A stretch of DNA of 64,000 bases, taken from contig NZ_LIKT01000005.1 in the NCBI RefSeq assembly GCF_001294455.1, positions 62,001-126,000 on the forward strand, read 5' to 3'. Position 1 is the first letter of the stretch. Every line of letters starts with the position of its first letter. This document shows, piece by piece, positions 5,650 through 11,284 of the stretch. A model generated the notes under the pieces. It did no database searches. It worked only from the letters and a program-made list of their open reading frames with translations, and had not been told where the DNA came from. This DNA comes from Phaeobacter sp. 11ANDIMAR09. Lineage in GTDB: Bacteria; Pseudomonadota; Alphaproteobacteria; Rhodobacterales; Rhodobacteraceae. A program made the position numbers and the translations under genes.

Positions 5650-7560
5650 TCAGGCCAGTTCAAAATCGCCGCGCCGCGCCTCCTCGTAGTGGTCAAAGCC
5701 GGTCTCAAACCAACCGGTCCCGCGCGTCGCGCTGGCCAGACTGTGGCACAGCTCATCCTGGGCGGCCAGCGGCAGCAGGGTCTCAAAGACATCCCAACCG
5801 GCCGCGCCTTCATCCGCTGAAAACCCGAGGATCTGCCCCTTCATTCCGCTCACCACCGGCACCAAGCCCCCCGTAAAGACAGAGGGCACATGGATCGACA
5901 CCTTCATGATCGGCTGCAAAAGGACCAGCCCCGCCTGATCCAGCGCCTCGCGTACGGCGTGTTTGCCAGCGGTCCGGAAAGCAAAGTCCGAGCTATCCAC
6001 CGAATGGTGTTTGCCATCCTTGAGCAGGATCGCCACATCCACCACAGGATGCCCATTGCGCCCCTCACTCAAGGCGTCGCGGGCCCCGGCCTCAACCGAG
6101 GGAATATTGTTCTTGGGCACCGCGCCGCCCTTGACCGTATCGGTGAACTGAATACCGCCGCCGCGGGGCAGAGGACTGATTTCCACTACCACATCGGCAA
6201 ATTGCCCGGCGCCGCCCGACTGTTTGCGGTGGCGGTGATGTATCTGCACCGTCTTGGTGATGGTCTCGCACAGGGCCGGGGGCACCATCTCGCCCACCGC
6301 TTCGACACCAAACTCGTTCTCCAGTGTCGCCAGGATTCGGCGCAAATGCAGCGGTCCCTGCAGATGCAACAAGGCATGCCCTGAGATCGCATCCTGTTCG
6401 ATCCTGACCGCCGGGTCGATTTCGACCAAGCGCTCCAGCGCCGCCGAAAGCCGGGTTTCATCCCGTTCATGCACCGGCATCACCAGACGCCGATAGGTCG
6501 AGGGACGGGGGCGGGCCCAACTGGGCAACGCGGTGCTGCCCTCCGCCGAATAGCAATACCCAAGGTTGAGATGATCCGATTTCACCGCCTGACCGACATC
6601 GCCCGCCGAGATGACACCATTGCCTGCGCCAGGGACAACGACCGCCAGGGACCCAAGACTGCTGCCCGCAACCGGTTTGCCATTGCCCAACCCGCCATCC
6701 AGCGCCCGCACCAGAACTGTCTTGCCCAGATGTTTGACCTGATCCGCCATGCAACCTACGGCCACCACGTCTCCCAGCTCCGCCAGCCGCGCACGCGTGA
6801 CGTCAACCTGTGGCACCTCGTGACGCAGGCTTTTCATCAGTCGCAGGATGCCGTTGCTATGTTCCGCCGCACCCAGCAAGGCCGGGAACAGATCGTTGTG
6901 TTGCAGCACCCGGGTCGCAATTTCATAGGCCTCTTCCGCCAGAATCGTCTGATCCTCGATCAGCTCTTCCAACAGGTGGTCATCAAAATCCGCCAGGGCT
7001 TCGAGCATCTCAACCCGCGCCTTCTGCTCGCGCTCCTGCATCTCCACTGGCAGCTCAATGAGCGCCGAGGGCTGGCCTTCGATGTATTTCCAGGCCCGTT
7101 CCGAGATCAGATCAACAGCCCCGACAACCTGTCCTGCCTCGCGGATCGGCACCTGACGCAGGACGATATTGTGGTTTGAATAGGTTTGCAGAGCGGCAAT
7201 GATATCGGCGACCCGCCCATTGGCCTGATCTATCCGGTTCACAAACAAAAAGGCCGGGATACCCGCCTCTTCGATCTGGCGCAGATAGGGCGCGGCCAGC
7301 ACCGCGGCCTCTGGATCGGCAGGCACACAGAGCACCGCCGCATCGCTGGCTGCCAGTGCCGGTCCCGCCTGGGCCAGATTTTCCGCCCCCCCGGCAAGAT
7401 CAATCGCGGCCCAGTTCTCTCCCATAAAAGAAAACGGCTGCATCGCTGCAACCGCTGCCGTTTCTTGCCGTTTTCCCATGACCCCATCGAGGCCAGCCAA
7501 CGCCCTAGCCAGGGTCGTCTTTCCGGACTGCGACGGTCCCAAAATTGTAAATACGCGCAT
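5650..7560 (-). CDS. elongation factor G-like protein with degenerate G domain
   Basis: A 636-residue paralogue of EF-G. The P-loop GPSQSGKT is at 8-15 and NRID near 109-112 serves as the guanine-specificity motif. Domains III-V are well kept (for example ITKTVQIHHRHRKQSGGAGQF and PIMKVSIHVPSVFTGGLV, read in parts). The region between P-loop and the DxxG motif is only about 40 residues, so switch I (RGITI-type) is missing, and the catalytic DTPGH is replaced by DLAGG at 54-58, losing the histidine. GTP hydrolysis is probably impaired. A GGAGGAACAGGAGAA leader precedes the ATG at 7560. Function unknown; a ribosome-associated role is inferred. The main fusA must lie elsewhere. Confidence 0.85.
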   Translation of the reverse strand: MRVFTILGPSQSGKTTLARALAGLDGVMGKRQETAAVAAMQPFSFMGENWAAIDLAGGAENLAQAGPALAASDAAVLCVPADPEAAVLAAPYLRQIEEAGIPAFLFVNRIDQANGRVADIIAALQTYSNHNIVLRQVPIREAGQVVGAVDLISERAWKYIEGQPSALIELPVEMQEREQKARVEMLEALADFDDHLLEELIEDQTILAEEAYEIATRVLQHNDLFPALLGAAEHSNGILRLMKSLRHEVPQVDVTRARLAELGDVVAVGCMADQVKHLGKTVLVRALDGGLGNGKPVAGSSLGSLAVVVPGAGNGVISAGDVGQAVKSDHLNLGYCYSAEGSTALPSWARPRPSTYRRLVMPVHERDETRLSAALERLVEIDPAVRIEQDAISGHALLHLQGPLHLRRILATLENEFGVEAVGEMVPPALCETITKTVQIHHRHRKQSGGAGQFADVVVEISPLPRGGGIQFTDTVKGGAVPKNNIPSVEAGARDALSEGRNGHPVVDVAILLKDGKHHSVDSSDFAFRTAGKHAVREALDQAGLVLLQPIMKVSIHVPSVFTGGLVPVVSGMKGQILGFSADEGAAGWDVFETLLPLAAQDELCHSLASATRGTGWFETGFDHYEEARRGDFELA

Positions 7561-7600
7561 TTCTCCTGTTCCTCCCTCAGCGAAATGGCTGCTCGGGAAA

Positions 7601-7827
7601 GGCATGGCACGATCAAAGTGCCACCTGAATGCCTGAGATACGCCCTGCCTCGAATGGCGCAGATTGTGCTGACGACTGCCGGTCAGGTCCGCAATAGCTG
7701 CGGGGACTCACCCCGCAGGGGATAACCAGTCATCTAGCTGATCATCGCTATGCCGGGCGCAGCCTGTCAAGCCAGGCCACCTGCCCCGCCCATCAAAGGC
7801 CCCAAAAACCCGTCAGAATGCGGGGCA
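7601..7827. other. intergenic inverted repeats, first block
   Basis: Between divergent EF-G-like and ffh genes. Nested arms GGCAT/ATGCC and GGCAC/GTGCC at 7601-7633; CTGCGGGG-ACTCA-CCCCGCAG at 7698-7718, a perfect 8-base stem; TGCCCCGC (7782-7789) with GCGGGGCA (7820-7827). No coding potential is convincing and no T run follows the stems. Confidence 0.5.
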
Positions 7828-7861
7828 ATGGCTCAGCCGCGCCATATGGCGTTGACTCAAG

Positions 7862-8039
7862 AAGCCAATCGGCGTAACGACAGGCCGATATCCGGAAGCA
7901 TCTTCGAGTCTTCCGGTCCCTGACCTGTCGGGGATCGCCCTCCACCAGCGTGTTACGCCCGTGGGGGCAAAGCCGTTTGGCTTGCCCCCACGACTGACAT
8001 CTGGACTGAGCGGGCAATTGTGCATGGGCAGCCCGCTCA
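7862..8039 (+). promoter_or_regulatory. structured ffh upstream region (candidate RNA leader or small RNA)
   Basis: Three perfect 7-base helices stack: 7871-7877 with 7953-7959, 7878-7884 with 7924-7930, and 7892-7898 with 7910-7916. They are followed by a hairpin at 7961-7991 (GTGGGGGCAA arm) and a 9-base hairpin TGAGCGGGC/GCCCGCTCA at 8007-8039. Bases 7862-7873 can also pair 11 of 12 with 7972-7983, in competition with the first helix and the second hairpin, as in an attenuator. The region ends 48 bases before the ffh ATG. Neither the SRP RNA core sequence nor any riboswitch that I know is present. Transcription and strand are unproven. Confidence 0.4.
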
Positions 8040-8087
8040 CTACATTGGGGCTGTCTGATTTTGGAACCGGCGAAGGAGGCCGTAAGC

Positions 8088-9617
8088 ATGTTTGAAAATC
8101 TATCCGAACGGCTTTCCGGGGTCTTTGACCGGCTGACCAAACAGGGCGCCCTGTCCGAGGAAGACGTCAAAACCGCCCTGCGCGAAGTGCGTGTTGCCCT
8201 GCTTGAGGCCGATGTCTCGCTGCCGGTGGCGCGAGATTTTGTCAAAAAGGTTCAGGAACAGGCCACCGGCCAGTCGGTGACCAAATCGGTGACGCCCGGC
8301 CAGCAGGTCGTGAAAATCGTGCACGATGCCCTAGTGGATGTACTGCGCGGCGAAGAAGATCTCGGCACGCTCAAGGTGGACAGCCCGCCCGCGCCCATCC
8401 TGATGGTGGGTCTGCAAGGCTCTGGTAAGACCACCACCACCGGTAAGTTGGCAAAACGCCTGAAGGACAAAGAGGGCAAGCGGGTGCTGATGGCCTCGCT
8501 TGATGTCTACCGTCCAGCGGCGATGGATCAGCTGGCGGTACTGGGCACCCAGATTGGCGTAGACACCCTGCCGATCGTGGCAGGCCAGAAACCCGTCGAT
8601 ATCGCCAAGCGCGCCAAACAGCAGGCGGCCTTGGGCGGCTATGACGTCTATATGCTCGACACCGCTGGCCGGTTGCAGATCGACGAAGTCCTGATGCAGG
8701 AAGTCGAGGACGTCCGCGATGTGGTCTCACCGCGTGAGACCCTTCTGGTCGTCGATGGCCTGACCGGTCAGGTTGCGGTCGAAGTGGCCGAGGAATTCGA
8801 CGCCAAGATCGGCATTTCCGGCGTGGTTCTGACCCGGATGGATGGCGACGGACGCGGCGGTGCGGCGCTGTCGATGCGCGCCGTCACCGGCAAGCCGATC
8901 CGCTTTGTGGGCTTGGGCGAAAAGATGGACGCCATCGAGACCTTCGAACCCGAACGGGTCGCAGGTCGTATCCTCGGCATGGGCGACATCGTTGCCCTGG
9001 TTGAAAAGGCCCAGGAAACCATCGAGGCCGAACAGGCCGAGCGCATGATGAAGCGCATGATGAAGGGTCATTTCAATATGAATGACCTGAAGATGCAGCT
9101 GGAACAGATGCAGCAGATGGGCGGCATGGAGGGCATGATGTCGATGATGCCCGGCATGGGCAAGATGGCCAAGCAGGTGCAGGACGCCGGCATGGATGAC
9201 AAGGTGATCAAACGCCAGATCGCCATGATCCAGTCGATGACCAAAAAAGAACGCGCCAACCCTGCGCTGCTACAAGCGAGCCGCAAGAAACGTATTGCTG
9301 CGGGCTCTGGCCAGCAGGTTTCCGATCTCAACAAGCTTTTGAAAATGCACCGACAGATGTCGGACATGATGAAGAAGATGGGCAAGATGGGCAAAGGCAA
9401 GATGCTGAAGCAAGCCATGAAGGGCATGCTGGGCAAAGGCGGCGGCATGGGCGATATGGCAGGTATGGACCCCAGCCAGATGGACCCCAAGGCGCTGGAA
9501 GCCGCGGCCAAGGCCATGGGTGGCGGCAAGGGCATGCCCGGCGGATTGCCCGGTCTGGGTGGCATGGGTGGAATGGGTCTGCCCGGCGGTCTCTCTGGCT
9601 TTGGCAAAAAGAAGTAA
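8088..9617 (+). CDS. ffh: signal recognition particle protein Ffh
   Basis: SRP54-type GTPase (509 residues) that binds signal peptides of nascent inner-membrane proteins with 4.5S RNA and hands the ribosome to FtsY. N domain 1-90; G domain with P-loop GLQGSGKTTTTGK near 108-120, DVYRPAAMDQL, DTAGR and TRMDGDGRGG. The M domain from about 300 is extremely methionine-rich (MMKRMMKGHFNMNDLKMQL, read in parts, and many GMG repeats) as expected for the signal-peptide groove; the C-terminal Gly/Met tail is longer than in E. coli. ATG at 8088 has a GAAGGAGG site. It heads a run of closely spaced genes. Confidence 0.97.
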   Translation: MFENLSERLSGVFDRLTKQGALSEEDVKTALREVRVALLEADVSLPVARDFVKKVQEQATGQSVTKSVTPGQQVVKIVHDALVDVLRGEEDLGTLKVDSPPAPILMVGLQGSGKTTTTGKLAKRLKDKEGKRVLMASLDVYRPAAMDQLAVLGTQIGVDTLPIVAGQKPVDIAKRAKQQAALGGYDVYMLDTAGRLQIDEVLMQEVEDVRDVVSPRETLLVVDGLTGQVAVEVAEEFDAKIGISGVVLTRMDGDGRGGAALSMRAVTGKPIRFVGLGEKMDAIETFEPERVAGRILGMGDIVALVEKAQETIEAEQAERMMKRMMKGHFNMNDLKMQLEQMQQMGGMEGMMSMMPGMGKMAKQVQDAGMDDKVIKRQIAMIQSMTKKERANPALLQASRKKRIAAGSGQQVSDLNKLLKMHRQMSDMMKKMGKMGKGKMLKQAMKGMLGKGGGMGDMAGMDPSQMDPKALEAAAKAMGGGKGMPGGLPGLGGMGGMGLPGGLSGFGKKK

Positions 9618-9618
9618 C

Positions 9619-10161
9619 ATGATCCAGGTTCCCACCATAGAAACCCAACGCCTGGTGATGCGTATGCCAGAGTTGAGCGATTTCGAGCCGCTCTGCGCCT
9701 TCTATGCCTCGAAGCGGGCTGAGTTCGTCGGTGGGCAGATGGAGCCGGAACAGGTCTGGCGTCATCTGGCGCTGGAAATCGGCCACTGGCAGATGCTGGG
9801 CTATGGCCGCTGGACTTTGGTCGAAAAAGAAACCGGCAAAGCTGGGGGTATCATTGGCTTGTGGAATCCCGAAGGCTGGCCCGAGCCGGAAATCGGTTGG
9901 GACCTGTTCGAGGGTTTTGGCGGCAAGGGCTACGCCACAGAGGCCGCCACTGCTGCGCGCACATATGCCTATGAGACTCTGGGCTGGAAAACCGCGATCA
10001 GTCTGGTTGATCCGAGCAATCACGCCTCGCGCGCCGTTGCGCAACGCATGGGGGCAAGCCGCGATGGTGATTTTACCCATGTCCGCATGGGCACCCTGGA
10101 AATCTGGCGGCATATGAGCCCCGATGACCTCGCATCTGGCGGCATGGAGGGCTACGCATGA
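9619..10161 (+). CDS. GNAT-family N-acetyltransferase 1
   Basis: A 180-residue RimJ/RimL-like acetyltransferase beginning MIQVPTIETQRLVMRMPE. The acetyl-CoA binding motif is GFGGKGYATEAATAAR (about 108-123), and the late segment LVDPSNHASRAVAQRMGA is the typical C-terminal strand and helix. Its ATG is one base after the ffh stop and its end overlaps the next gene by ATGA, so translation is coupled. Substrate unknown. Confidence 0.85.
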   Translation: MIQVPTIETQRLVMRMPELSDFEPLCAFYASKRAEFVGGQMEPEQVWRHLALEIGHWQMLGYGRWTLVEKETGKAGGIIGLWNPEGWPEPEIGWDLFEGFGGKGYATEAATAARTYAYETLGWKTAISLVDPSNHASRAVAQRMGASRDGDFTHVRMGTLEIWRHMSPDDLASGGMEGYA

Positions 10162-10685
10162 CCGCAATGCCCCTGCCCATCCCGGTGATCGAAACCGATC
10201 GCCTGATTCTGCGCGCACCACATAGCACGGATCTGAAACCCCTGGCGGATTTCTTCACCACTGAGCGCAGCCACACGGTTGGCGGTCCGCGCGACGCGGC
10301 CGGTGCCTGGGACTCGCTTGTGGCCCGTCTGGGGCATTGGTCCCTGAATGGCTATGGCCTGTGGCATATCACCGACAAGGCCAACAAAGCCTTTGTTGGC
10401 TGGACCGGCATTATCTTTGCCCCGGGTTGGCAGGAACCAGAGCTGGGCTGGGCTCTGTTTGAGCAGGCCGAGGGCAAGGGCATCGCCGCTGAGGCGGCCA
10501 GAGCGGCCCGTCGCTATGCTGCGCTACATCAGGGGCATAATGGCGTCATCAGCTATATCCGCCCCACCAACGCCCGCTCCCGCGCGCTGGCGCAACGGCT
10601 TGGCGCCACACTGGAAGAGTTGGGCGACCTGCGCGGCACCCCTTGTGAAATCTGGCGCCACCCAAAGGCGGAGGAAGCCGCATGA
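10158..10685 (+). CDS. GNAT-family N-acetyltransferase 2
   Basis: A 175-residue acetyltransferase (IPVIETDRLILRAP start) clearly paralogous to its neighbours. Its acetyl-CoA loop EQAEGKGIAAEAARAARR is less canonical than the first copy. The C-terminal IRPTNARSRALAQRLGA matches the first copy's segment. It overlaps both neighbours by ATGA. The three genes probably arose by tandem duplication. Substrate unknown. Confidence 0.83.
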   Translation: MTAMPLPIPVIETDRLILRAPHSTDLKPLADFFTTERSHTVGGPRDAAGAWDSLVARLGHWSLNGYGLWHITDKANKAFVGWTGIIFAPGWQEPELGWALFEQAEGKGIAAEAARAARRYAALHQGHNGVISYIRPTNARSRALAQRLGATLEELGDLRGTPCEIWRHPKAEEAA

Positions 10686-11284
10686 CCCATAGCATACCCG
10701 TGATTGAGACCAAACGTCTGGTGCTGCGCGGCCCCGAGGCCGAGGATTACCCGGATTTTGAGGCGACCTTTTCCTCTTATCGCGCACGTTTCATGGGCGG
10801 GCCATTGAATGCCTACGAGGCCTGGATGCTCTATGCCGCCGAAATCGGCCATTGGCAGATCCACGGCTTTGGCATGTGGATGATCCACGACAAGGCGACA
10901 GATGAGACCTATGGCATGGCCGGCGGCTGGATGCCTGCGGGCTGGCCCGAACGGGAAATCGCCTGGATCATCTGGCCCGATGCAGCAGGCCATGGCTATG
11001 CGTTGGAAGCCACCAATGCCGCCCGCGCCTATTTCTACGAAACCATGCGCTGGGAGACGGCTGTGAGCTATCTCGACCCCAAGAACCTGGATTCGATCCG
11101 CTTAGCGGAACGCTTGGGCGCGGTGAAAGATCACGATGCCACCACCATCGACGGCAATGACGCGGTCTATCGCCATCCCAGCCCAGAGGCGCTGAAGGGC
11201 AGCCAGATCGCCCATGGGATCGAGATGGAAATCAGCCACTATGCTGACCCGCTGTTCAAACCAAAAGGATGGGCTCTTGACTGA
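10682..11284 (+). CDS. GNAT-family N-acetyltransferase 3
   Basis: A 200-residue member of the triplet (SIPVIETKRLVLRGPEAEDY start). The usual Q/RxxGxG/A acetyl-CoA loop is WPDAAGHGYALEATNAAR, and YLDPKNLDSIRLAERLGA matches the paralogues. It has an extra 25-residue C-terminal tail. It overlaps the previous gene by ATGA and the chorismate mutase gene by 8 bases. Substrate unknown. Confidence 0.83.
   Translation: MTHSIPVIETKRLVLRGPEAEDYPDFEATFSSYRARFMGGPLNAYEAWMLYAAEIGHWQIHGFGMWMIHDKATDETYGMAGGWMPAGWPEREIAWIIWPDAAGHGYALEATNAARAYFYETMRWETAVSYLDPKNLDSIRLAERLGAVKDHDATTIDGNDAVYRHPSPEALKGSQIAHGIEMEISHYADPLFKPKGWALD

Follow-up and report, generated by a model that had tools for sequence, protein, structure and literature searches.

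The ffh motif (RF01793) before ffh in a Rhodobacteraceae genome: conserved hairpins, a promoter-like sequence and a lineage-specific insert

The closest described system is the ffh motif of Meyer et al. 2009 (PMC2704228), held in Rfam as RF01793: a single bulged hairpin that precedes ffh in Alphaproteobacteria. According to the text of that paper, the motif is carried by all fully sequenced Rhizobiales, its transcript has been detected in metatranscriptomes and a role in the regulation of ffh is proposed; the regulation of Ffh levels is described there as not fully understood. Two reports on Sinorhizobium meliloti, as far as their article texts describe the loci, are also relevant. Sm5 has a sigma-70 promoter, a predicted terminator, a length of 108 nt when counted from the nearer of its predicted starts and an array signal, and comes with no Northern blot (PMC2573895), and SmelC778 is a sequenced small RNA of 115 nt (3522269-3522383; PMC2873474). 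A small-RNA listing for Bartonella includes a leader RNA named after ffh (PMC7717549, listing as given in the text). Here we compare these systems with the DNA preceding ffh in the window, by which we mean the whole 64-kb stretch of Phaeobacter sp. 11ANDIMAR09 that was analysed. All coordinates are those of the window, and the features are collected in Table 1.

Identity, structure and distribution of the element

Positions 7924-7975 (+) match RF01793 over model positions 1-52 of 52, scoring 56.2 bits where the gathering score is 35 (E 5.2e-08), and this is the sole Rfam match at gathering level in the 64-kb window. The locus is a known alphaproteobacterial RNA element, not a new family. An initial annotation had suggested a two-state RNA switch or a small RNA, and had found no likeness to any known riboswitch. 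On the last point it was right: the Rfam search returned a known family and no riboswitch, RF01793 being alone at its gathering score and no riboswitch family appearing with E up to 10 in 7600-8300.

Table 1. Features of the ffh leader and its surroundings in the window
Feature	Position	Strand	Remarks
Putative -35 element	7852..7857	+	TTGACT; absent from the consensus-scan output
Putative -10 element	7875..7880	+	TAACGA, 17-nt spacer; start predicted at about 7887
Hairpin P1	7892..7916	+	Arms 7892-7898/7910-7916; innermost helix of the initial annotation; outside the Rfam model
Hairpin P2	7917..7934	+	Outer arms TCCC/GGGA; 5' part outside the Rfam model
Hairpin P3	7939..7967	+	CA/CC internal loop; arms 7939-7945/7961-7967 and 7948-7951/7955-7958
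Hairpin P4, lineage-specific	7961..7991	+	Shares the 3' arm of P3; a hairpin of the initial annotation
Insert, 47 nt	7971..8017	+	Between GGGCAA copies 7965-7970/8012-8017; ends ambiguous within the repeat
Possible second promoter	8018..8046	+	TTGTGC-17-TACATT, right before ffh; overlaps hairpin 8007-8039; putative
Ribosome-binding site of ffh	8075-8079	+	GGAGG, read from the sequence
ffh	8088..9617	+	SRP54-type protein; Pfam SRP54 9e-68, SRP_SPB 2.6e-28, SRP54_N 2.3e-19

Comparisons were made over 139 loci, namely the window, the 59 best-scoring loci found through the RNA and 79 of the 80 to which the Ffh protein had led. The eightieth, L073, is omitted from these counts, as its loop is one base longer and escaped a fixed pattern, and L001 and loci fetched later stand outside the set. 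Two alignments, A1 (79 sequences) and A2 (75), are diverse subsets of the 139; most loci from other families were withheld from both and tested separately.

In the 79 aligned sequences the three hairpins P1, P2 and P3 are paired in 95.2% of cells, and versions slid along the alignment in 36-51%. Twelve pairs are doubly changed (shuffle mean 8.4) and the covariation score is 0.285 (shuffle mean 0.122); 0/500 shuffles reach the observed value for either measure or for the share of cells paired, and 5/500 reach the number of pair types. Support is spread over the three hairpins. P3 is paired in 99.9% of cells with 6 doubly changed pairs, and its bulge bases C7946, A7947, C7959 and C7960 are invariant in 79/79 sequences; it shows the features that mark RF01793, a bulged hairpin whose stem covaries and whose CA/CC bulge is conserved, and the initial annotation did not list it. 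P1, which that annotation had drawn as its innermost helix, is paired in 96.6% of cells with 2 doubly changed pairs. P2 is paired in 84.7% of cells over 6 pairs, 4 of them doubly changed; its outer 4 pairs are at 100% and its inner part is weak, the fifth and sixth pairs failing in 30 and 41 sequences. A more distant set, in an alignment fitted to the model (21 rows including the window and one chance match, L120, with 7.6 bits and E 6.1), has 6 doubly changed pairs in P1, 3 in P2 and 16/22 overall.

Some details of P1 are of interest in themselves. Its 3' arm and the bases that follow (TTCCGGTCC, 7911-7919) are more conserved than its 5' arm, and at one of its pairs 16/79 sequences retain the pairing solely in the form of G-U; a constraint other than pairing is hinted at. 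The GG at 7915-7916 that closes P1 could instead extend P2 through 7935-7936 (GGTCC/GGATC); the alignment is neutral between the two arrangements because both partners are identical in 79/79 sequences.

RF01793 was found in 189/198 genomes of the family, 106/385 of the class and 0/14 control genomes, and in all of the 12 genomes of the window's genus. In a sample of 299 genomes from the phylum, whose share from outside the class is unstated, it was found in 55, every one of them a member of the class. A covariance model of P1-P2-P3 (R1) was built from 75 sequences. It gives 82.5 bits for the window, itself one of the training rows, and finds 19/19 other-family loci left out of training (28.6-53.5 bits). 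In the class R1 is no more sensitive than RF01793 (59/289 genomes vs 106/385, in samples of different size). Eleven genomes that it matches in the 289-genome sample lie outside the RF01793 matches of the 385-genome sample. The nine Rhodobacteraceae genomes without RF01793 gave no R1 match either. Five genomes that lack both (G017, G029, G090, G172 and G180) are rated at least 90% complete, and true absence of the RNA is possible in these near-complete Rhodobacteraceae genomes.

As expected of RF01793, the element lies upstream of ffh, both in the window and elsewhere: ffh follows on the same strand, at 16-285 nt, in 59/59 RNA-found loci, which are the best-scoring matches of family and class and not a random draw. 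Beyond ffh in the window, three consecutive GNAT acetyltransferase genes (9619-11284; Pfam Acetyltransf_3 in all three) stand before a chorismate mutase type II gene, which is followed by rpsP (ribosomal protein S16). The three GNAT genes may be tandem duplicates.

Predicted ends of the transcript

The conserved sequence before P1 is likely to be a sigma-70-type promoter (7852-7880), with transcription starting near 7887. TTGAC occurs upstream in 139/139 loci and is the best hit in every one, although the search pattern was TTGA within a 65-nt stretch. The best-scoring -10 lies at a 17-nt spacer in 111/139 loci and starts with TA in 116/139, under a scoring that favours TTGACT and an A at the second -10 base. 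For the window itself the script favoured an 18-nt spacer (AACGAC), one base later than the TAACGA of Table 1. With the start set 7 nt past the -10, following the rule given in the text of Valverde 2008, an RNA running from the predicted start through P3 would measure 74-110 nt, with a median of 81 nt. A scan of 7500-8200 with an E. coli-type sigma-70 consensus reported no promoter on the + strand and one on the - strand. Both this promoter and the second one proposed before ffh are argued from conservation, since the scan reports neither.

The evidence for the second promoter is of a similar kind. A looser pattern is found in 64/113 Rhodobacteraceae loci, against 1.8 expected from shuffles; its -35 overlaps a conserved T-rich tail, so that only the spaced -10 counts as independent evidence. 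The consensus scan of 7500-8200 did not report it. The hairpin at 8007-8039, which the initial annotation had correctly noted, has its 5' arm partly in an insert that Roseobacter sp. MED193 lacks.

Sequence rich in T often comes after P3. T makes up a mean of 47% of the 12 nt following the hairpin vs 18% in the rest of the leader. At least four T in the 8 nt after P3 are present in 51/95 Rhodobacteraceae loci without P4 (6.5% of background 8-mers), in 10/25 loci of other families (10.7%) and in 5/19 loci with P4 (9.6%). In one large-genome family TTTTT comes right after P3 in 3/3 loci, which hold two distinct RNA sequences; the RNA predicted up to TTTTT would be about 96-101 nt, in agreement with the lengths given for Sm5 and SmelC778 in the texts cited above. 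For the window itself termination at P3 is doubtful: the hairpin runs into AAAGCCGTTTGG, and a scan of 7500-8200 gave nothing resembling a terminator on the + strand. The conserved internal loop of P3 is also unusual for a plain terminator.

A lineage-specific insert and the pairings first proposed

The distance from the RF01793 match to ffh is 113 in the window and 66 in Roseobacter sp. MED193 (L003), which is without the insert of Table 1 and has an Ffh 98% identical to that of the window. Judged by spacing, the insert is present in 10/11 congeners and absent in L173, whose leader is like that of L003. As copies of GGGCAA flank the insert, its loss or gain by recombination is easily imagined.

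The insert creates P4, which is predicted to displace P3, the two forming a mutually exclusive pair. In the window the predicted energy of P4 is -26.5 kcal/mol vs -15.9 for P3. When 7887-7995 is folded, an outer P4 pair has a probability >0.99 and a lower-stem P3 pair 0.0; when the fold ends at 7975 (7887-7975), the same P3 pair has 0.985. Among 20 P4 loci, chosen by eye from spacing and sequence and therefore a biased choice, P4 has z <= -3 in 17 (L045, L050 and L065 lie above -3) and beats P3 in predicted energy in 13. Its pairing is preserved mostly through G-U changes (91.6% of cells paired, reached by 10/500 shuffles), and covariation is weak, with 1 doubly changed pair (reached by 131/500 shuffles) in a count over 12 of the 20 loci, which make up the majority of the loci that show no change in length. 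A loose test for P4-like hairpins that tolerated G-U pairs was discarded: it was passed by 73/139 loci and by 50% of shuffles. In L123, from another family of the class, a P4-like hairpin (GGGCAAAACC/GGTTTTGCCC, z -5.05) overlaps the 3' arm of P3, which is there predicted to be slightly more stable than that hairpin.

The switch drawn in the initial annotation was a different one. It set three perfect helices (7871-7877/7953-7959, 7878-7884/7924-7930 and 7892-7898/7910-7916) against a pairing of 7862-7873 with 7972-7983. All of these pairings are present, each helix with 7/7 Watson-Crick pairs and the competing one with 11/12, as is the P4 hairpin, and 7862-7995 folded alone yields the nested helices. 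The region is also more structured than chance: the fold of 7862-7995 has z -5.36 and that of 7840-8090 z -3.63 (0/200 shuffles as good in either), perfect complementary 7-mer windows number 13 in 7862-8039, whereas shuffles average 0.97 and 0/60 reach that number, and a pairing of 11/12 or better arose in only 2/60 shuffles. It is probably not all one RNA, however, as 7862-7884 would stay untranscribed with a start at about 7887. The predicted promoter DNA before that start holds the 5' arms 7871-7877 and 7878-7884 together with the strand 7862-7873.

Comparison with relatives separates the helices. The two outer ones are paired in 51.4% of cells in the 79 sequences (66.0% and 35.2%), which column shuffles equal (average 51.9%; 372/500 reach the observed value). 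Slid versions reach 28-40%; because the column shuffles give an equal value, we read the excess over these versions as an effect of base composition and of the first helix happening to use conserved bases of the -10 and of P3. In 11 congeners, with G-U allowed, the helix at 7871 is complete in 3/11 and that at 7878 in 0/11, and the competing pairing reaches at most 8/12. The 7871/7953 and 7878/7924 helices were rejected as RNA structure on the shuffle-level pairing and these genus counts; of the three helices, only the innermost, P1, is borne out in relatives. Two of its three helices and its competing strand draw on bases at or beside the -10 of the conserved promoter-like sequence; with no covariation and poor retention inside the genus, the switch as first drawn is highly improbable, even though its pairings exist and stand above slid versions. 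The idea of mutually exclusive pairing survives in another form: P3/P4, a lineage-specific feature, is the one two-state arrangement for which there is some support.

Possible functions and comparison with known systems

The reading that we favour, with a probability of roughly 0.55, is a promoter-proximal leader or attenuator that gives a short RNA before ffh, with leaky termination at P3. A transcript begun at about 7887 from the putative promoter at 7852-7880 would fold into P1, P2 and P3, and P3 would serve as an intrinsic terminator or attenuator that leaks: many transcripts would stop as an RNA of about 80-115 nt, while a fraction would read on into ffh. A regulator may act at the invariant single-stranded pieces, the GATCG linker and the CA/CC loop of P3. 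In Rhodobacteraceae a second promoter would often stand before ffh, and in the window's genus the insert-borne P4 could dismantle P3 in read-through RNA. The constant place before ffh speaks for a role in cis. That transcripts can stop at P3 is argued from the promoter-like sequence, from the T-rich end seen in many loci and from the small RNA of S. meliloti. The leaky attenuator is favoured because it covers both. The small RNA of the initial annotation also gains support, from membership of RF01793, the promoter-like sequence, the covarying structure and SmelC778 at the equivalent place in S. meliloti.

Several observations pull against the attenuator. The negative consensus scan, the sequence after P3 in the window and the internal loop of P3 were noted above. 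In 8/139 loci, moreover, ffh starts <35 nt past the Rfam match, where a separate RNA and a promoter would hardly fit, and four or more T in the 8 nt after P3 occur in only 5/19 P4 loci and 10/25 other-family loci. The short distances, four of which are 16-21 nt in genomes of 1.2-1.3 Mb, fit another model, in which a protein (Ffh or some other operon product) binds the mRNA leader and thereby governs the translation or stability of ffh, and in which transcripts do not terminate at P3. Such a leader would also account for ffh lying directly downstream in 59/59 RNA-found loci and for the conservation of bases that stay unpaired in P3 and the linker, and it accords with the ffh regulation suggested in the text of Meyer 2009 (PMC2704228). 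It is harder to reconcile with distances that reach 285 nt, with the second-promoter pattern between RNA and ffh in 64/113 Rhodobacteraceae loci and with the 115-nt RNA that PMC2873474 gives for S. meliloti, and we regard it as unlikely. A conserved promoter-like sequence of its own, and the small RNAs detected in S. meliloti (PMC2573895, PMC2873474) and listed in Bartonella (PMC7717549), as their texts present them, could belong to an independent RNA with other mRNAs as its targets in trans, one that lies before ffh by chance. For action in trans, however, the constant ffh neighbour would be needless and the conserved unpaired stretches are short; this explanation seems to us quite unlikely.

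If the leaky attenuator is taken as the general case, a further step can be suggested, though we hold it to be speculative and on balance rather improbable: RF01793 would be the 3' part of a three-hairpin ffh attenuator, and in Pseudophaeobacter, its kin and several relatives the insert would make a two-state P4/P3 RNA, in which read-through transcripts lose the P3 site and short ones keep it. That P4 occurs in some close relatives and is missing from others offers a ready-made natural comparison.

Among known RNAs, the 4.5S RNA (RF00169), the RNA partner of Ffh, invites comparison through nine letters that it has in common with P1: ATCCGGAAG, at the start of P1 (7890-7898), is also found around the GGAA loop of the genome's 4.5S RNA (L141 1542-1550), which lies at a locus separate from the ffh leader. 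Mimicry of the 4.5S RNA, or an antisense action on it, was rejected. A same-sense 9-mer is reached by 4% of shuffles and an antisense 7-mer by 44%, joint folding of leader and 4.5S RNA gives -1.3, weaker than the average of -4.68 for the controls, and P1 departs from GGAA in several sequences. The text of Meyer 2009 (PMC2704228) likewise states that the motif does not resemble the Ffh-binding part.

Sm5/SmelC778 (PMC2573895, PMC2873474) has, on the published descriptions, the place and strand before ffh that the window's element has, a sigma-70 promoter, which is putative in the window, a length of 108-115 nt, close to that predicted here, and a predicted 3' terminator. The window differs in having no clear T-tract after P3. 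That Sm5/SmelC778 belongs to RF01793 is suggested by its position together with the statement of Meyer on Rhizobiales. The ffH leader RNA of Bartonella bacilliformis (PMC7717549) is, as listed, an expressed leader named after ffh.

In the article texts searched, the conserved P1 and P2 are undescribed, as are the promoter-like sequence and the P4 insert; a drawing of Sm5 exists in Additional file 15 of PMC2573895, and P1 and P2 may have been drawn before. An RNA defined more fully in this way, by P1-P2-P3, a likely promoter and a likely 5' end, is a direct object for ligand, protein and termination tests, and the results suggest that a 5' extension of the 52-position Rfam model would be possible. 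The window's element resembles the ffh motif, as drawn in the text of Meyer 2009 (PMC2704228), in all 52 model positions, in a P3 with a two-cytosine bulge and in its place before ffh. The motif of Meyer and Rfam is P3 alone; to it the window region adds P1 and P2 with covariation, a conserved promoter-like sequence that indicates the 5' end, and, at the level of the genus, the P4 insert.
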